This document shows positions 12,904 through 23,961 of a stretch of DNA of 44,519 bases, piece after piece. The notes below the pieces were generated by a model, which saw only the letters and a list, made by a program, of their open reading frames with translations, was not told the DNA's origin and did no database searches. The stretch lies in the NCBI GenBank assembly GCA_000697665.1, contig KL197723.1, positions 694,224 through 738,742 on the forward strand, written 5' to 3'. The stretch's first letter is position 1, and each line of letters opens with the position of its first letter. Position numbers and translations under genes: made by a program. This DNA comes from Jaapia argillacea MUCL 33604. Its lineage: Eukaryota > Basidiomycota > Agaricomycetes > Jaapiales > Jaapiaceae.

Positions 12904-12946
12904 TATGGCACGTATTTTGTAAAGAAATTAAAAAAGATCCTCTTGC
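12904..12946 (+). repeat. left terminal inverted repeat of element A
   Basis: 43 bp, identical to the reverse complement of 22205-22247; it begins TATGGCACGTATTTTGTAAA. Beyond it the two ends keep only patchy similarity. Confidence 0.9.
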
Positions 12947-13180
12947 TCAAAAAATCCTCTCCACTTGAAAAAAAAGGTCATCTTCGACCAAAAGAAAGTA
13001 AAAATGATCCTGTCGTGCCCAAAAAAATCCTCATCCGTGAAAATTCCCTTGACATAAAAAGTCCCTCTCAAAGAAAAAAGCCCCCTCCATTGACAAGCAT
13101 CTTTTCCAAAAAGATCCCCTCACACAAAAAAACCTCTCGATTTGAGAGGCTCCTCTCACTGAGCCCCTCTGAGCAAAGGC
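12947..13180 (+). repeat. left subterminal A-run/TCCTC array of element A
   Basis: The motif AAAAAATCCTC and close variants (A run followed by gATCCTC, TCCCTC or ATCCCC) recur every 20-40 bp, for example at about 12930, 12947, 13005, 13021 and 13110. The right end has the complementary T-run pattern. Such arrays are typical transposase-binding regions; that role is inferred here. Confidence 0.5.
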
Positions 13181-13288
13181 TCTGGGGATTTACAACTCAA
13201 TACCCAATTGGGCGTCAAGCTTGTCGATCAATCTATGAGGTCATCCTGACGTGGAGCTGATCAGCATCCCTCCCTCCTCTCCCGACAC

Positions 13289-14008
13289 ATGCCTCCACCC
13301 TACCGCACCCCTCGCTTCGATCGTGCAATGGGTCTCGGCCTCTCAGGTCTCCCTCATCCACCCAACTCACCTTGGTCACACCATCATCTGAACCCCAGAC
13401 CCCAGAAGCCGATGTGCTTGGCCATGTCCACCATCCCCAGAACCACCTCGACCTTACCTGAACCCGTGTCTAACTTGCCACTCTCACCTGCCCAATTGAT
13501 ACATCTCTTCCAGCACATCATATCTTCTCCAAATCGTAGCGAAATCCCTCAATACCTACCCCATATCCTTCAAGATGAGGTTCATGTATGTGTATGTGGG
13601 CGGCAAGAACCTGGAGGTCACGATTCGAAATCACACTATCACTGGAAGATCTTCGTGGTTCAAGATCTTGTATCCAAGTCGCGCAGCGATACATTCCTTG
13701 CCACCTCCACATCTTAGGAGATATACGCTCTCAGATACAGCATTATACTTCAAGAACCAACCCCCAAGGATGGGTGTTCAACCTTCCTTTTCCTCGAGAT
13801 TCCTCCAAAACCTCTCACCATCCTTGAATTAGGCTCGGGGACTGGTATACTCGGCCCTAAGATCACTGAGATCCCGATGCAGTCACCTGGGGACCTCATC
13901 ATTCTCACTGATCTCCCCAACATTTGCTCCTCTATGGTACACCTCGAGCGCACACTTCCCTTGCCTTTTAGTATCACTTCCACCCCTCCCTCAACCACCA
14001 TTGTGTAG
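13289..14008 (+). pseudogene. captured fragment of a METTL21-like methyltransferase
   Basis: Pieces in different frames read SSWFKILYPSRAAIHSLPPP, YTLSDTALYFKN, NLPFPRD and then LTILELGSGTGILG with ILTDLPNICSSM. This is the layout of fungal family-16 (METTL21-like, S-adenosylmethionine-dependent lysine) methyltransferases: an N-terminal part, motif I (ELGSGTG) and a TDLP motif. At least two frame changes separate the pieces, no intron explains all of them, and the C-terminal catalytic half is missing. It lies inside element A near its left end on the opposite strand from the element's genes, so it is most simply a captured host gene piece. Confidence 0.6.
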
Positions 14009-15874
14009 TCTTCTGGTTGGTTGCTCATTTTATTCCTTTTGTTTTGGTCACTGCTCCCGTGTTCATGTATTCTCTGTACCCCGATCCTACATCATTGAAA
14101 TGGTATCGTCATTGTGTATTGCTATTGTATTTCTGACCACAGCATCCATTTAGGGACACTGGCAAGGTCCTGTGTCTGGATAGACATCTTAAAATCAAGC
14201 TGTTGAGTTGCAAGGCCAGTTCCTGTTCCACCAGGTTTGGGCACGCAAACCTCATGGTTGCGCCTTCCTCCCCACCACTACTACACGGCTCAGAACACTT
14301 TCATACCGCTCGTTCAACTACACCATGACTGGTTTTCTGTCCTACACCCCTTCTTCACCATCACAGCCTCTTGAAAAGCCACACAAATTTCTCGTTGCCG
14401 ATGTGTGTCTCTATGGATACTGTACATTGTGCGTCTACTCTTTTGGTTTCGTTCCTATCCTCCTGCAACGATAAGACTGATTTCCGCACACTCGGTTGCT
14501 GCCTGTTCACGTCAGATAGATTGGCACTGGCATCTTCACATCAATATTACATGCTCGTCACCCATGTGTCTGATGCAGACCTTCGTTCACTTTGTGTTGG
14601 CTCTGATTTGACATGGCCATAATATGGATAGGTCATTTAGCAAATACCTTTGTAGATGGTTGGAAGGTGGTGGTGGTGGTACACGCAAGGTGAGCACCCT
14701 TTCTGTCACTTTTTTGTTCTCCCCCAACACTGACCATTTTCAAGTTGTTGAGGCGAGATTTCTGGTCCATGCCAGTCTCCCATGTTGACAGCCCTGATGC
14801 TTTCCTCTTCCCTTCACCCCCTCCATTGCATACGAACACAACCGTGGTTTGGCACCTTTGTAGGACTAGCTCATTTGCAGCGCCTATGTGCACAATTTTC
14901 TGTCACTCAGGGATCATGGGCTTTACTACCAATCAATCTCTGTGGTTACGATTACTGCCTCAAACACAACTCTCTACTACCAGTTTTCAATAAGGTTGTG
15001 TTCTTCCTTTGACATATATCTGCAGACAAATATCCACCTCTGCTTACCTCTGGGACTTGTTGCCATCCCATTCACCACTGCCTCCCAATTTCTGCAATGG
15101 ACAGTAGACTCAGGATTGCACCCCACTTGTCCCAGTCGGTCACAGAGCAAGACATTAGTATGCCCCCATTGAAGGCCCCAGGACATTTTGCTCAGTTGGA
15201 GATTATCTCACACCTGCTGTGTTCGTTCATATCTGGCTGGCACATGTGTCTTTACTTGGTTGCCTTGTGCTCTTGTCTCATTTTTCTGGCTTTGTTCACA
15301 GCTTTTTCTTTTGCTTTTGGGGCTTGGGAAATCTGGGCAAGTGGCTGTGCTACTCGGTGACAATTCCCACACTCTGAACCATGAGTCTCATGGGTGCGTT
15401 TATATGTTTATTGCATGTGTTGTAATTCTATTCACTCGCATTCAATACACAATATCTATCCTTGGACCTAATGGCTTACCCACCCATCTGAATACTGGTC
15501 ACTCACACCCTCTATCCGTTGTCAGCATGACTCTCCCATGTCCATTTGCAGACAAAGGCCAACCCTTCTATATCTAATATGTTGGCGAGCTCACCACCTA
15601 ACCAATTTTGAGTAGTAGTGCATCCAAGGTGAGTTTGACCTTTTGTCTCCTTTTTCCACGAGTATTGACAATTTTGAAGAAATTGTAGGATCCCTACTAC
15701 AATCATGAGCATGCAGCAAGGATATGTGCCTGATTTGTAACACATTTGTTTGTGTGTCCTTCCCTAAATAAGAGTACCCCTAATACTTAGAGGCCCGGAA
15801 TCCAATGGGGTCCATTGCTCTGATTCTCTTGAGTGCTGTAATGACATGATAAACTGCATCTACAGACCTGAGAT
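14009..15874. other. interior of element A without a recognisable gene
   Basis: ORFs up to about 130 codons exist (for example 15188-15577, +), but they are Cys/Leu/Val rich without family features. Two diverged patches look related (around 14.68-14.76 kb and 15.62-15.69 kb, sharing CAAGGTGAG...TTTTGT and TTGACAATTTTGAAG-like blocks), suggesting an internal repeat or remnant of a spliced gene. Confidence 0.35.
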
Positions 15875-17482
15875 TCAAGAAAGGTGTGTTTGCATGTATT
15901 GTACAGCAGTGCAGTAAGTGTTGATACCCCACGCATCCTCCTCCTCACCTCCAAGTCCCATATCAAAGCCTTCAAGAAGGGACTTTGCATAGTCCAGCTC
16001 CATCTCATCAAACAAGTAACTCTCACCCTCTGAATCATCTTCCTCATCTGCTTCACCTACTGGTGGCATTGCAGCCTCCCCATCCCAACCATACAGTGGA
16101 TCCCTCAACGCCTCAACACCATCCCCCAGATCTCCATGCCAGTAGCCTTGTTGGATCGCTCTCTCCTTGCTAAGCTCCCACAATGCAATTGGGCTTTGGT
16201 TACGTTCAGTGTGAATGGCATGACGATTCCAACCCTCAAGGGTGTGGTTGAGAGAGGCTTGTATGCAAGGCTGATAGACAAGGAAGAGGCAAACAGCCTG
16301 CACATTGTTGTCCATATTGAGAAGTCCACACTCCTCTAGGTGAAGAAAAATCCGACGAAATGCTTCAATGGTATCCTTTCTCACATCTCTCCAGAGTCGC
16401 TCGATGCAGATGTTATGTACAGACCTAGGGAGAGACAGGCTAAATGAGAAACCAGAGTATACAAAATTCAGATGACATGCTCACCTTCCCCAGAGATACA
16501 CGTTATGTGCTTCTCCCCAGTGCTCGATCATCAATATCTCCACCTTATTGTTCTCCGTGCCATAATCTCCTCTTGCACGACTAGGCCAGCCCCACTTCTG
16601 CACCCCTTTCTCAAACAAGGACAGGACTGTGGAGGCACGTTTATTGGACTGGCATTCGAGGTATATGATGAGGCGAGAATGGCCATCAACACAGCCATGG
16701 ATCCAAAACCCCCAGGGTTTCAGTTTCTCGTTGCCATCATGGTGCCAAAGGGCGTTGGAACCCCATACCCTGTAGACTCTTCACTTGAGAACCCCAGCCC
16801 ACCTGTTTGTGTCAGCGAGTGAGAATTACTTGAATTACTTTTGCCAAAAGCACACACACCTGCTGAGGACCCCCTCGGGATCCACTCTTCGGAGGCTATC
16901 CTGAACCCTGCGACTTGGCAAATAAACACCCTTGGCTTCAAGATGTCCCTTGATGACATTAGAGCCCGAAAATGGATGATTGAGCGATATCTCAGCAACC
17001 AGCTCATCCAAGTTATCATCATCAATCTCTGTATGGGGACATCGAGCTGTTGACATCCCGGCGTCCTTCAACCGATTATAGAGTGTCTGGCAGGAGGTGT
17101 TCAGGGTTGTCACAATATCAACCCAAGGGATACCCAAGTTATGGAGGTCAACAGCCCTTTGTAGGTTGATATCATGAGATGGGCATCCAGGACGGCCTGA
17201 GTAAATCTTCAGGGGTGTGGGATGAGTATCCTCAGTTGGGGACTGCAGAAATGTGACAAGGGTGTGGAGAAGAGCATCAAGGCCATCAATAAGCTCATCC
17301 TTCTCTGCTTCAGTTGCCTTTGGATCGTCCAGATTTAGCACAAGCGAGTGCAATGCTTGAAGCTGATGAATAGATTGCTCCACCGCGATAGATTCAACAG
17401 CAGGAATTGATTCGACAATGAACTGAGTGTCTTGGACGATTTTGGCCCCATCAGCAAAGAACTGATGCAAACCATTTGACAT
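15875..17482 (-). pseudogene. rve-type (DD35E) integrase of element A, one in-frame stop
   Basis: Three exons (17482-16860, 16802-16485, 16424-15875) give 497 codons with a single TGA at codon 215 (16783-16781). Residues 107-140 resemble a helix-turn-helix of the GRP...DLHNLG...LYNRLKDAG type. Then come DELVAEISLNHPFSG and RRVQDSLRRVDPEG. The catalytic core has LWHHDGNEKL (D230), GDYGTENN (D287) and NICIERLWRDV (E322), a D-57-D-35-E spacing. Relatives have an arginine at the TGA position (K-R-R-V-Y), so CGA to TGA is likely. Both acidic and basic tails are present, so length is near normal. In the family this enzyme would cut and join element ends. This copy is probably inactive unless the stop is read through. 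It is the last of three co-oriented genes of the element. Confidence 0.85.
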
Positions 17483-18903
17483 GACGGATCATTACAACGA
17501 CTGAGGAAATGCAATGCAGAAACTGAAGTCAACAGCTGTGATGCGTCTGGGACTGGGATGCAAGTAGATTGAAGGCACCCCAGATTGAGATCACACAGTT
17601 GGAGTTGATGCAGATGAAGGTTCTATTGATGAGACTGTAGATATGCACATATGACGGAAATGCAAGTATATGGTCAGACATGATGTCCCTCGATTGGAAT
17701 CAACAACGAGACTCTTATGACAATAACATCGAGGTTTTGTAATTAGCATAGAATGTAATCTCAAGGTGGCACCAATCTGACAAGCAGCTCATATGAAACA
17801 ACTGAAGCGGCCAGCACTGCTGATGTAGTTAGGAGGTGTTGACATTAGTGTTTCGTGATTGGGGGGCCTGAGAGCAAGTATGGCAGTGTTCAGAGGGGAA
17901 GCGGTGTGCGCACAGTCTTTGTGGGCCTGGAAGACTGATGGAGCAGGGAGGGGGCGAAAAAATCTGTCATGAATATTGAAACAGCACGATTTGCAAGAAA
18001 CACATTAAGAGTCATCTTTTGCTTACCTGGAAGCCTTCAAGCCCTTCCTGACACCCTATTAAGCCTGATTGAGAATCCTTTCATGCTCCTAGTTTTGCTC
18101 CAACCAAGGGATGAGTGGGAGAGTGCTGTTGCACTCAATCCCGGTGTGGAGAATCGAGCTGAATTGGGTTGGGCTGGTGGGTGTTGCTGTTCAGAGCATT
18201 TATGAACCACAAGATGAGACACAATGGTTGAAAACAGGATTGATGGAAAAATAGCAGGAATGGGGCTGAATCAGGAGTAGATGTTGCCAGCTCCAATGTG
18301 GATGATGCTCAACAGCGCGAGACATGGTGGGCACTGCCAGTGATTGTCACTGTGACAATCATCACAATTGGTCATGATGCCACACAGCAAGAAAGATTCA
18401 GACATAACAGGTCAGGGCCCTATAGCTAAGCTCTGATATTGATAGGAGAGCATCAGAGGAACCATAGGAAGGTGTCTCAAAGAAAAAACTGAGCTGCATG
18501 TCGGTTCTCACTGCTCAGCATATGTAAGTGCCGTTGTGGCGCCAATTGTCACAATTGGTCACAATGCTCAACAGCATGAAAGGATCAAGATACAACAGTT
18601 CAGCTCAGAGCATGGTACATTGCCTGGCGGTTTGTGGTACGTCTAACTTCACCGTTTTCCACAGTGACCCAACTGTTTAAACCTTTCGTTAGTTACCACA
18701 GTGAAGACCTCTTTCCATTCTGCACCAAGGGAATGTTGGGCTGCTTTGTCAGGGTGGTAGTGCTATTTGAAGTTAGGTGCCTTCAGAGAAGAAGTCTCAG
18801 AAAAATGGTATGCTATTTGACTTACCACAAGGAGAGCCTTCTTCTGGCGTTCAGCTGATCTGCTTGAAAAATCAGTATCACAAAGCATTTCTTTCAAGTC
18901 CAA
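17483..18903. other. interior of element A, noncoding, with a short diverged repeat
   Basis: No gene is supported. A block containing CACAATTGGTCA...GCAAGAAAGATTCAGA at about 18360-18415 recurs in altered form at about 18548-18605 (CACAATTGGTCACAATGC...GAAAGGATCAAGA), with a weaker trace near 18300. It could be a regulatory or subunit repeat. Confidence 0.4.
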
Positions 18904-19451
18904 CTAGAGAGATGGAACAGGGTGCGGTATCTTTGCCAGAAGCGAAAGCACTGCTTCATCCCAGGTCCTCTTGCCTGCTAGTTCATCTGCAACATCGAGC
19001 CTCTCCCTTTGCAATCGGGAAGTGCCATATGCTGGCCTGGGCTTTGGTCTCGGTGGAGTAGCCGGTCGCTGTGGAGGGTTGGATGGAGGAGGAATTGACT
19101 CGTCTGTCTTCGCTGAAATTGACACAATATGTGACATTTGAGCTTGCAAATGCATTGGTACAAGAGGTACTCACCATCCTCCTCCAACTCAAACAGTCCT
19201 TTCCCTCCCACACCATCCATATGATTCTTAATACTGTCCATCCCTTTCCTCAATTCATCGATTTCCACTTCTTCACTTGTCTCTGAGCGTTCATCACCCT
19301 CAAACCCCTCCTCACTGTTGTCGACAAAAATGATCTCAGGAGACAAAGTCCGCCTGGAAACACAGCACATCACTAATTATTTGCAAGTATACAGAATTTA
19401 AGTTTACTGTCGCTTTTCCTTTTTCTCCCTTTCTCCCTGTGTCGCACTCAT
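18904..19451 (-). CDS. 143-aa acidic, proline-rich protein of element A
   Basis: Three exons (19451-19408, 19353-19175, 19112-18904) close in frame to 143 aa. The start MSATQGEREKKEKR is highly charged. The middle is acidic (NSEEGFEGDERSETSEEVEID). A proline stretch follows (PPPSNPPQRPATPPRPKPRP), then a short C-terminal helix-like end (RTWDEAVLSLLAKIPHPVPS). No domain is recognised. It sits 80 bp after the stop of the 568-aa gene in the same direction, so both may be expressed together. A role as cofactor of the integrase is only a guess from position. Confidence 0.6.
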
Positions 19452-19531
19452 TGTAGATCTTGTGTTCCTTCCATCTTGCTGAATAAAATAATCGACTCCA
19501 AATAAGAGAAATTGCAATACTGAAGCTCAAA

Positions 19532-21681
19532 TCAACGCACTGAGCTCTCGCTACGAGGTCTCTTAGAAGGCTTGGACTTGCTGGACTTGAGGTCGTTGGT
19601 GAGTCTCTGAAGCACCATGGTGCAAAAGCTTGCAAGAATGTCAAACTTGGGGTGGTAGCTCTCGTGCATCTCATTGTGTGTGTCAAGGAAGATGTGGACG
19701 ACCTCCTCCAGAAACTTGTCCAATCCAAAGTTTCCTCCAAGAAGGAGCTCTGATTTTACCATCTTTTTGGTGGCGCAATATCCAAAGTCGTTGATGACAG
19801 CTTCGAGGTACTTCTCAGTGGGATCTTGTTCACAGAGCTTTGAGGAGAGGGAAATGTGCCACTGCTGCTCTGTGGCGACCTAAATGAAGATGAGATGGTA
19901 TCGAAAACTCCTGTGGGACAGGAAAATGACTCACGGTAAGGGCAAATGTACCATCCTTGTCTCTAAGAAAATTCTCGAGATCTCGAAAAGGCGGCGGATC
20001 AAACAAACGGCAGGGAACTATGATGCGAAGCACGCAAACATCATCAACAATCATCCCCAGTGATTCGCTGAGACCCTCGATCACAACAGACATCTCGGTA
20101 TCCAACGACCTCTTGCGAGATTTGACCAGCTCCCCCAAGAACTGAAGCGCAGAATCCACCACTCCACTAACTTTCAAGATACCAGCTGGTCCAAGAGAAA
20201 TCAACTCCCCTGCTTCTAAAACTTCATGAAGGTCACGGAGTGGAACGGTCAAGTAAGCTGTGATCACTGAGAGGACCTGCGAGGGCGAGAATTCAGTAGG
20301 AGATTTCCTACACAACTCTAAGAATTTCAGGAGACTGTCGGCGTTGTTGATAAGGTCGATGTACTTTTCGCTTGCCTTGGAGGGCCACTATCATAGGAGG
20401 AGGCCATCGTAAGTGCACTTTCAAGGAAATGACACCACTCAGTGCATTGGATAAAGACGTACCCATGGCTGATCCTTGGCTGGCGCCTCCATGTTAAGCA
20501 AAATCCTCGCCAGCTGTGCTGGCTTCTCTACAGCTTCATCATAATAGATGGCTGAGATCCCACCGCTGGTCAACTGTATGAAAGAATGAGAGCTTATTAT
20601 GGGGGCCGATAAGCGATTCTCACCTCATCGGAGTTGGGATCAAATGTTGGTTGGGGTGGGGGTTCAGACTTGGGATGACGTGGGCTGTCCTGATCATGAG
20701 TGAAGAAAAGTGTCACAATTCTATCAATAAACTCACTGAATTATCACTAGAATCAGCCTCGCCTTCTGCACTCGACTCTGATCCACTGACTGTCTCACGG
20801 TAACTCTCACCCTCAAGTTCTTCCAACGTTCTGCGCGTGATATCTTCTTCAGGAGAAGGCGCCACTTAGGTGTTGTTTGAACTTGGGAAAACTCAGGTAT
20901 AGATTGAAATACACTCTCAACCTCCTTGGCAATGGATAGGGATCCACACTCGTGCGCAATGGTGATAGACTTGATAAGGCCGGCGTCGTCCAACTGGAGT
21001 GCCCTACAACACACCTAAACGTTTTGTGAGGGTGGCTCAAACAAAGCACTCACCAGTTTGGGGAAGGGCGCAGATATGTTTCGTTTGTCACGGCAGATGT
21101 GCCTTCAACGAGCCCAACTGTGTAGGTAACAAACTTGGTCTTCTTGACATACCCTCCCTTGCAAGGACGAAGAGGGGGTGGCTGAGCCCAGAACCAAGCG
21201 ATTGAAGACTCTATTCAATCTCACAACAGCCGAGAGAGATTGAATGTACATGAGACCGTGGGTCGAAGCTCTTACTTCCAAAACTCTTTCCTTCTCCCTT
21301 GCGACTGTCGCTATCTGATCGTTTCCTTGACTGGTCGCGAAAATTTGAAGAAAGGTCGGGGTCGAGTGCCTGAGTAGGTCGGCTGGATTGAGGAGGCTTG
21401 GACAGAGGAGGAGGGGGGATAGGAGGAGCAATCGGGGGTGCTGACTGGGCTTGACCTCTCGCAGATGCATGCTAAATATATTTTAGAGGAAAGATCAGGC
21501 AAATCTTTGGACTTGTACTCACCGACAGATGCAATGCAGCCGGATGGGAACAAATTGCACATTTGGTCATTGGTGCGGTGTTTGCAAGAGTGATGCCTCC
21601 ATCGGGTATAAAGATTCCACACGCAAGGGGGCAATTGGGCACCTGGCACTCAACCAAACGATCCTTCCATGAGGAATCCAT
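19532..21681 (-). CDS. 568-aa zinc-knuckle protein of element A, intact
   Basis: Nine exons (21681-21523, 21471-21276, 21210-21054, 21003-20915, 20864-20737, 20689-20624, 20573-20463, 20387-19935, 19879-19532) close in frame. The start was chosen as the ATG just before the zinc motif. Cys12, Cys17, Cys21, Cys41, Cys44 and His46/His51 form CX4CX3C...CX2CXHX4H, a likely zinc-binding unit. Next come a proline/serine-rich stretch (PPIPPPPLSKPPQSSRP), a basic patch (RKRSDSDSRK), a Ser/Glu-rich linker and a mostly helical C-terminal half of about 260 residues ending in a basic tail (KSKPSKRPRSESS, possible nuclear signal). No enzyme motif is seen. It is the only large gene of the element without any lesion. 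It may be a DNA-binding partner of the integrase; function unknown. Confidence 0.65.
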
Positions 21682-22204
21682 GGAGGGAGTGAGTGAAGCA
21701 AGAGGGATGGATGTCCAGGCAACCAGAGACCACACGAGAGATTGCGCCACCGGCAAGTCACAGCCACCATCTTGATAAGACCAGCCCAAGCCGCCTTCAA
21801 CACAATACAAGTCGGCACAGAGGCTGGCGGCGCAAGTTGATACCCAGAAATACTGAGCGCAGAATCAGAATGACAGTGCATGAACGGTTGGGTGGACAAC
21901 ACTGCCACCCATCAGGAAGAGAAGATCTGTCAGAGAACCCATCATCTTGGGCCAACCTTGTCTCTTGTGGGTCGCGGGGAATCGAGCTGATGTCCGCTGA
22001 TAAAATGTGCGGTGTTTCCACGTTGGGGAGATTTCTTGAAGCCAGCGGGGTACTCACCTCCCAACTGAGGGGAGATTTTTTAATGGGATCAGATTTTTTC
22101 AATGAGTTGAGGGGTATATTTTGATGCTCAATGGTTTTTTTTCGTGTCGGGAGGATTTTTCTGGGCACGAGAGGATTTTTGCGACAGAGACGAGCCTTTT
22201 TTTT
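21682..22204. other. right end of element A: promoter region and subterminal array
   Basis: About 520 bp between the start of the 568-aa gene and the right terminal repeat. The last ~140 bp (about 22070-22204) has T runs followed by GAGGAT or CTGGGC blocks (GAGGATTTTT, AGGATCTTTT), the mirror image of the A-run/TCCTC array at the left end. No gene. Confidence 0.5.
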
Positions 22205-22247
22205 GCAAGAGGATCTTTTTTAATTTCTTTACAAAATACGTGCCATA
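22205..22247 (-). repeat. right terminal inverted repeat of element A
   Basis: Exact reverse complement of 12904-12946, ending ACGTGCCATA next to AACCAA (22248-22253). Confidence 0.9.
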
Positions 22248-23961
22248 AACCAAACCCTCAAAAATAACCTGATCCTTCAAAAAATCAACCCTCCTAACCC
22301 CATATTTCTTTGCTTCCCCACCTTCCAACCCACACCTCAAAAACCAAGCATCAATGATCTCCTCTCTCTCCTCGTCATCCAACCCGTTATTATAAAAATC
22401 CAATTTCCCAATCTCCTTTCTCAATTTCGCGTAGATGGAAGCGAAGAGATTGCCCAGCACGCATCCGGGACCTGAGTTGGGGCGAATGTCAATGTACCAG
22501 GGGAGAAGTGGGTGGTAGAGTCGCATCTGGTAGACTGGAGGTTCGGTGGTATATTGAGCGAGATCTTCGAACTCGATGTGGCGGTTTAGGTGGACGAAAC
22601 AGACTGTTCCTTCGAAGTCGAGTCGCATGTCGTAGGCTACAGGTGGTTGTTTCGGGGTGTAACGGATACAGTGGTGGAGTTTTTCGGTATTACCGAAATG
22701 GCAATATGGGACGTCTGAATGAAAGTTAGTAAGGAGAAAGGATGGAGAAGACGAGACAAGGGAACGTACTTGTTAATGTTGTGGCAAGTTTCTTACCACC
22801 GAAACGAGCCACCAGTCCTATCAATTTCGTCTTCTTGACGAAATCCTTCCTCCATGCCTTTGGGGGTTTTCTAGTCCCCCTCAACACAGTGTCCACCTTT
22901 ATCGGGCCATCAGGGGGGTGATAAATGTCTCCTTGCGAAAAAGGAGCCGCACTCTCGATCGATAGTAGGTTACCGTTGTCATCAACTTCATTGATTCGCG
23001 TTATGCTGTCCCCCCATGCCGCGTGCGCGACCTGCATGGTATTGAGGACGGAAGTTAGCAAGGAGGTGAAGCTGGAAAGAGAAAGGCATACGTAAGGGTT
23101 ATTTTGTTTCGAGTAGGTATCGTCATTGAGGTCGAACGGCGCCCCTGTTCGCCTCCGCAAACCATTGGGTGGTTCAATATCTCCTTCATCCATCAACACC
23201 CCACTATTTCTATCGCCATCATACGAGCCCTGGAAAATGTAAGAAGTCATCACAAGAGTCAGTGGGGGGGGGGAGGAGAGGATGAAGACATAGATGAGGT
23301 TCAAAGTTGTCATCTTCGCCTTCGTGGATCCTTCGTTGTACACTCTCAGCATCATCTCCGTATTCTTCCACGATAGGTGGTATGGTACTACCAAAGGGAG
23401 CATATGGGTCCTGGAAGTCATTGAGAACAGAACAAGGGGAGAAATGAGGGCGCGAGGGGCGTACATGTCCACCTATCTTCATATCCCTGCTGCTGCTATT
23501 ACTACCTTGTGAAGATTCAGAATTGCGAGATTTGTCGCTATACCAAGTACTCAACGCCACACGACATTCACCCTCCTCAGCGAGGGACTCTCTATGAATA
23601 GAAAGCAATGAGGTGAGATGAAATGGTGGACGTGGAAGGTTGGAGTGCACACATATTGATGGTCGAGCAAAGTGACATCCATGGTGGATCCTTGGCCGCA
23701 TCATGTTCTCGTTTCCGTAAGTCATACTTGATCAACCTGATTAGCAGATCAGTCTCAGAAGAGAATAGGGAAGAGGGTTTCGTACCATCCGGTTGCGAAA
23801 GCCACAACGAGGGCGAACACCCCTGCTCTGATACCGATACCTTCATGTTGTTCTACAAAGCCAATGATCGCAGAACCTATGCTGGCAACTGTGATAATGC
23901 AACCAAAAACGAGTTTGCGTTTTGCGACCAAAGTCAAACAGCGATAAAAGTGAATGATCAT
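22248..23961 (-). pseudogene. DUF6699 copy 3, main part, disrupted
   Basis: This is the mirror-image partner of copy 2, with the same N-terminal helices (VFGCIITVASIGSAIIGF, GVFALVVAFATG), linker and DUF6699 part (YHPLLPWYIDIRPN, LGNLFASIYAKLRKE). Three independent problems are visible. Element A splits the gene at EGLV, so the frame now runs into the terminal repeat; the last 19 codons lie 9.3 kb away. Plavaka sits about 23 bp upstream of the ATG (23961), cutting it from its promoter. The intron donor that is GTATGT in copy 2 reads CTATGT at about 23293, so that intron cannot be spliced normally and leads to a stop. An 8-nt gap near 23.64 kb falls inside an intron and is harmless. Confidence 0.85.

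Follow-up and report, generated by a model that had tools for sequence, protein, structure and literature searches.

Which kind of transposon interrupts a DUF6699 gene in the fungus Jaapia argillacea MUCL 33604, and do the genes that it carries belong together? The stretch of DNA analysed, referred to as the window, comprises 44,519 nucleotides of contig KL197723.1 (positions 694,224 to 738,742 of the forward strand). At window positions 12904-22247 lies a complete transposon of 9,344 bp that carries an integrase gene and two companion genes, called gene 2 and gene 3 here. As judged from its sequence, the element is very probably one copy of a low-copy DNA transposon of IS3EU/GingerRoot, a known superfamily. 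It would provide an intact-ended, multi-gene fungal element of the IS3EU type, whose empty site can be reconstructed and which has two relatives within the same genome.

The boundaries of the element can be read directly. Its terminal inverted repeats are identical at 43 of 43 bases (96% over 51 bp), both start with TATGGCACG, which gives the end motif TATGG..CCATA, and the element is flanked by a perfect duplication of AACCAA (6/6). When the element and one AACCAA are removed in silico, the DUF6699 frame on the minus strand continues as ...EGLVKGKNGMWEMKTRRLNV. The Pfam match to DUF6699 covers 131 of 131 profile positions at 90.5 bits in the empty site and 126 of 131 at 87.5 bits with the element present, an improvement that is small but consistent. 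An earlier note on this DNA had reported a 9.3 kb transposon with 43 bp identical ends, a 6 bp AACCAA duplication and a host frame that removal of the element restores, and these statements were borne out.

The integrase gene has three exons (17482-16860, 16802-16485, and 16424-15878 plus the stop) and two introns of 57 and 60 bp; splice sites of the window genes are predictions, both in the earlier note and in the present models. The product matches Pfam rva_4 (PF24764) with an expectation value (E) of 8e-62. Searching the 43.7 Mb assembly with PF24764, for which match counts are lower bounds, gave six matches at three loci: the window and one locus each on contigs C26 and C1. The catalytic residues D230, D287 and E322 are conserved across the three aligned integrases. 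After splicing, the spacing from the second D to the E is 34 residues in the window copy and in C26, so the integrase is of the DD34E type and not DD35E, as had been stated before. An in-frame TGA is present in exon 2 of the window integrase, upstream of the first catalytic D (Table 1). The profile search counts two TGA codons in the unspliced gene, the other one falling where the second intron begins. With a TGA breaking the integrase frame, the window copy is probably non-autonomous and unable to move itself.

All three rva_4 loci are enclosed by TATG..CATA ends, and the flanking 6-mers agree at 6 of 6 positions in the window and at 5 of 6 in each of the other two. The C26 element (346216-357077; 10,862 bp) ends in TATGG, has flanks AACATC/AACGTC and inverted repeats of 29 bp at 86%, and includes a 2.7 kb run of N. 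Its integrase is about 50% identical to that of the window, with a frame that stays open for 588-590 codons and two presumed introns in frame. The C1 element (365635-372325; 6,691 bp) ends in TATGC, with flanks CCGTCC/CGGTCC and inverted repeats of 30 bp at 90%. Its integrase is split over two frames, and one TGA in the first matched stretch may be intronic. An inverted-repeat search placed the repeat starts exactly at the ends chosen for C26 and C1. The rva_4 family is in this way tied to TA-ended elements with 6 bp duplications at 3/3 loci found in the genome.

Profile searches place the three integrases near bacterial transposases. The IS481 and IS3 profiles of NCBIfam match 3/3 (best E 8e-9 and 4e-6, respectively), the rve profile gives a weaker match (best E 3e-4 among the three), and helix-turn-helix profiles match 2/3, weakly. 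Transposase families of PHROGs match one of the three (best E 1e-6). In a plasmid tblastn search the top match was the IS3-like ISPpu29 transposase (E 7e-5, 24% identity over 90% of the query), and ISPpu29 accounts for all matches listed (20 of 1,071 records). A PDB sequence search with the C26 integrase found nothing; with the integrase alignment it gave five weak matches (best E 0.021), three of them resolvase/invertase chains matched at the helix-turn-helix end. A Pfam search of the integrases gave no match to the N-terminal HHCC zinc domain, and a custom regular expression for the HHCC pattern found none in the two complete N-terminal regions (window and C26). These two negative results led us to reject Ginger1 and LTR-type integrases as candidates. 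The transposase core and the N-terminal helix-turn-helix are shared with bacterial IS3 and IS481 insertion sequences, which are without introns or these companion genes.

The same profiles bear on the suggestion, made in the earlier note, that the element is Polinton-like. A Polinton/Maverick relative stripped of its replication and capsid genes would have an integrase-type transposase and a 6 bp duplication, as seen here. Against this, the integrase matches the IS481 and IS3 profiles better than rve, the ends are TA..TA, and the longest reading frame of the element is 217 codons from stop to stop. Hallmarks of Polintons are family B DNA polymerase, ATPase and capsid genes. The Pfam scan, which covered the translations of the integrase, gene 2, gene 3 and the methyltransferase fragment described below, with other short open reading frames (ORFs) outside it, matched none of these. 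Two scans of viral_contigs confirmed no relative: with the C26 integrase no stretch matched the pattern, and with the three-member alignment 476 stretches matched and 0 were confirmed. A genome_contigs scan matched 41 stretches and likewise confirmed 0. Polinton ancestry thus modified is very improbable.

The published descriptions of IS3EU and GingerRoot fit the element well. According to the sections consulted of Kojima and Bao (2023; PMC10045372), complete IS3EU families always have TA..TA ends and usually 6 bp duplications, GingerRoot elements have 6 bp duplications and mostly TA..TA ends, both are without HHCC, and the first catalytic D lies 100 to 300 residues from the N-terminus. The window element has TA..TA ends, a 6 bp duplication, and an IS3/IS481-related DDE transposase without HHCC whose first catalytic D lies about 230 residues from the N-terminus. 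The relatives likewise have TA..TA termini (TATGG in the window and C26, TATGC in C1) and 6 bp duplications (6/6 for AACCAA, 5/6 for each of the others). All three transposases match IS481 and IS3, under the cut-offs, and HHCC is absent from both N-termini available. IS481EU was rejected: the same source, as far as consulted, gives it TNT..AYA termini and duplications of about 4, 15 or 25 bp, as opposed to TATGG..CCATA and 6 bp in the window. The IS3EU elements of rusts, as portrayed in the consulted part of Kojima (2025; PMC12730594), have 6 bp duplications, repeats >30 bp, ends TAYGG..CCRTA, and alpha-kinase and TET/JBP genes. The TET-positive rust elements resemble those of J. argillacea in the 6 bp duplications and in the repeats, which measure 43 bp in the window, 29 bp (86%) in C26 and 30 bp (90%) in C1. 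TAYGG..CCRTA fits the window and C26 ends, whereas C1 has TATGC. The earlier view that the element fits no usual fungal class of DNA transposon is therefore not upheld, since ends, duplication, repeats and profiles all match a described superfamily.

Several observations weigh against this assignment. The NCBIfam scores are far under the model cut-offs (27-35 bits against 224, and 18-26 against 160). The duplications of C26 and C1 each carry one mismatch, and neither element came up when perfect 6 bp duplications were scanned for automatically. The ends of C26 were first read by eye further inward, where there is no duplication, and TATGG was chosen after consulting the consensus of fungal IS3EU elements; the repeat start had already been put there by the search for inverted repeats. 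The functions of genes 2 and 3 are without profile or fold support. The link between rva_4 and IS3EU is drawn from anatomy and from similarity to the IS3/IS481 profiles, with IS3EU and GingerRoot compared by description. For one fixed end pair, the chance of at least 5/6 flank matches is 0.0046.

The superfamily suggests how the element would have moved. The DD34E IS3/IS481-like integrase, whose N-terminus has a helix-turn-helix, would bind the 43 bp ends and connect them to the target with a stagger of 6 bp, which would produce the AACCAA duplication. Movement by cut-and-paste would follow from the superfamily, and what the window itself shows is the footprint. The perfect ends of the window copy could still serve as substrate for an integrase provided in trans.

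The closest described element, set by description only, is Styx of Zymoseptoria. The consulted part of its report describes an active IS3EU element, 7,927 bp long, that has a 36 bp repeat, a 6 bp duplication and solo ends and is present in its ascomycete host at 0-34 copies per genome. Four ORFs encode the transposase, GATA and CCHC proteins, and DUF3577, and a copy with a non-functional integrase reportedly moved (PMC10853768). By description, Styx and the window element share the same plan, an integrase with presumed DNA-binding companions. They differ in that Styx has GATA, CCHC and DUF3577 proteins, four ORFs and an ascomycete host. Rust elements differ in their alpha-kinase and TET/JBP genes: neither Pfam family was matched inside the three elements here, where the 2.7 kb run of N in C26 and a distant PE-type TET could escape the search. 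Elsewhere in the genome, alpha-kinase matches occur at 1 place and Tet_JBP matches at 25 places, 17 of them above the family cut-off; these 25 places may signify other TET-carrying transposons.

Like the integrase gene, genes 2 and 3 are encoded on the minus strand. The earlier note had given them as a 568-amino-acid zinc-knuckle protein and a 143-amino-acid acidic/proline protein. Both genes are present, and their lengths under predicted splicing come to about 583 amino acids in the eight-exon model of gene 2 and to about 135 for gene 3. The automatic model of gene 2 ran into gene 3 and was ended by hand at an in-frame stop. The exons of gene 3 extend from 19370 to about 19175 and from about 19112 to 18907, with borders read by eye. 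At E ≤1, the only Pfam match to either gene is that of one exon to Ferredoxin_N, which is not significant (E 0.22). Fold predictions for two single exons of gene 2 are of low confidence (mean pLDDT, the predicted local distance difference test, 68.6 and 54.7), and a structure search with the first of these found no match at E ≤0.001 among 156 up to E 10.

Homologs of both genes are found in the C26 element. Four comparisons with C26 were made, three with parts of gene 2 (N-terminus, core and helical part) and one with gene 3, and in each of them 0 of 500 shuffles reached the observed score; the core and helical strings were cut by hand. An independent tblastn of unspliced frames against C26 gave E 1e-10 for the C-terminal part of gene 2 and E 8e-5 for gene 3. 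The order of the two genes is the same in both elements. In the window both genes read in the same direction as the integrase and in C26 in the opposite one, and by this difference they behave as a pair. When the genome was searched with the window gene 2, two loci only were found, both inside integrase elements (window and C26), and no host copy, as a lower bound. The reverse search with the C26 gene 2 found C26 alone, which shows the limited sensitivity of the search.

The C1 element is less clear. Its N-terminal Cys region of gene 2 was compared with C26, and 1 of 500 shuffles reached the score; for the WRLL core the count was 32 of 500 against C26 and 1 of 500 against the window, with core alignments of only 7-8 residues. 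Gene 3-like and BTB-like ORFs in C1 are an impression, and the BTB-like frames have no Pfam match. The earlier note had asked whether the companion genes always travel with the integrase. They do so at both gene 2 loci found, each of which lies in an integrase element, and gene 2 is clearly carried by two of the three integrase elements.

The composition of the two proteins and their co-inheritance suggest that the product of gene 2 is most likely a DNA-binding or end-complex partner and that of gene 3 an acidic, proline-rich adaptor. Together they would form a module inherited with the integrase, and we infer that they aid transposition. We regard it as a tentative possibility that they are two undescribed protein families which together make up a conserved accessory module in the IS3EU elements of this fungal group. 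With similar reserve, transposition, or else escape from silencing, may depend on this module, which would stand in for the alpha-kinase and TET genes of rusts and the GATA and CCHC genes of Styx. The gene 2/gene 3 pair was not met in the IS3EU literature searched, which was open-access and consulted in part, and companion genes like these are unmentioned in the sections consulted of PMC10045372. The common pair suggests that large multi-gene IS3EU elements extend beyond Styx and the rusts, and the two genes offer testable accessory proteins.

It is rather unlikely that the two genes play no part in transposition and are simply passengers or genes captured from the host. The element already carries apparently captured DNA, the proposed roles derive from sequence features, and C1 has no clear gene 2, all of which would agree with passengers. 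Against them, the two genes recur, with their order kept, in an element whose integrase is only about 50% identical, and the search with the window gene 2 found its two loci in elements and none in the host, within the limits given above. The companion genes also bear on whether the element and its relatives form a separate superfamily, in which an rva_4 integrase and genes 2 and 3 acquired IS3EU-like ends and duplications by convergence. Their lack of significant Pfam matches, their difference by description from alpha-kinase, TET/JBP, GATA, CCHC and DUF3577 companions, and the absence of alpha-kinase and Tet_JBP matches from the three elements (with the limits stated for C26 and PE-type TET) would suit such a superfamily. 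Ends, duplication length, repeat length and absence of HHCC fit published IS3EU elements, and companion genes vary within IS3EU in the parts consulted of PMC12730594 and PMC10853768. A separate superfamily is accordingly improbable, and membership in IS3EU/GingerRoot is preferred. The earlier description of a non-viral, integrase-type element with companion genes stands, and its alternative of a separate superfamily most likely gives way to the fit with IS3EU/GingerRoot. That note had named placement in a described family with the same gene set as the result that would contradict it: anatomy and profiles point to a described family, and the gene set is the same in plan only.

Table 1. Positions of the transposon features and the interrupted host gene in the window
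Feature	Positions	Strand	
Target site duplication, left copy AACCAA	12898..12903	.	
Left terminal inverted repeat of 43 bp, starting TATGGCACG; matches the right repeat at every base	12904..12946	+	
Methyltransf_16 (lysine methyltransferase) gene fragment; PF10294, E 1.3e-5, match about 13808-13936	13613..13937	+	
Integrase/transposase gene, Pfam rva_4, DD34E, in-frame TGA 16783-16781	15875..17482	-	
Gene 3: acidic then proline-rich, about 135 amino acids, two exons; C26 homolog	18904..19370	-	
Gene 2: N-terminal Cys cluster, WRLL core, helical region, basic C-terminus; eight exons in model; C26 homolog	19532..21681	-	
Right terminal inverted repeat	22205..22247	-	
Target site duplication, right copy AACCAA	22248..22253	.	
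Interrupted host DUF6699 gene, portion upstream of the insertion; last codons left of 12904	22254..22628	-	

The Methyltransf_16 fragment is 74-76% identical to DNA of contig C12 and is probably a captured piece of a host gene.

Copies of the ends are few. A genome-wide search with the 20-base end of the window element at ≤3 mismatches found four sites: its own two ends, a solo end on C17 and a site on C27. The solo end (C17:53677-53696) has 1 mismatch, extends over 31 bp at 97% to the window terminal repeat, and has no partner within 3 mismatches. The C27 site has 3 mismatches and is at chance level, given a control count of 2. The C26 end was found genome-wide at its own two ends alone (control 0). 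The window and C26 families look nearly single copy. The search for more copies of the 43 bp end, proposed earlier and carried out with the 20-base probe, yielded one solo end and no further complete copy.

A short element with TATGATGTTCCGTTTGTACA ends (also given as TATGATGTTC), which resemble the ends of the C1 element, is present in three complete copies: C17:59498-60157 (660 bp), C88:22301-23040 (740 bp) and C11:815685-816423 (739 bp). All three are flanked by perfect 6 bp duplications (CAAATG, GTCCAG and GGTTCG, respectively). Its end occurs at 14 sites genome-wide (control count 6). Six of these form the three complete pairs, two form a pair on C8, three are single at 0-1 mismatches (C16, C7 and C62), and three have 3 mismatches, for which chance is a fair explanation. 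The stretch between the C8 pair (C8:105574-111662; 6.1 kb, TATGATG ends) was rejected as an autonomous element, having no integrase match and flanking 6-mers that differ. It is a member of the short TATGATG family into which roughly 5.4 kb of DNA has been inserted. The frames of this insertion, one of which was scanned and had no Pfam match, give the impression of a reverse transcriptase and a tyrosine recombinase.

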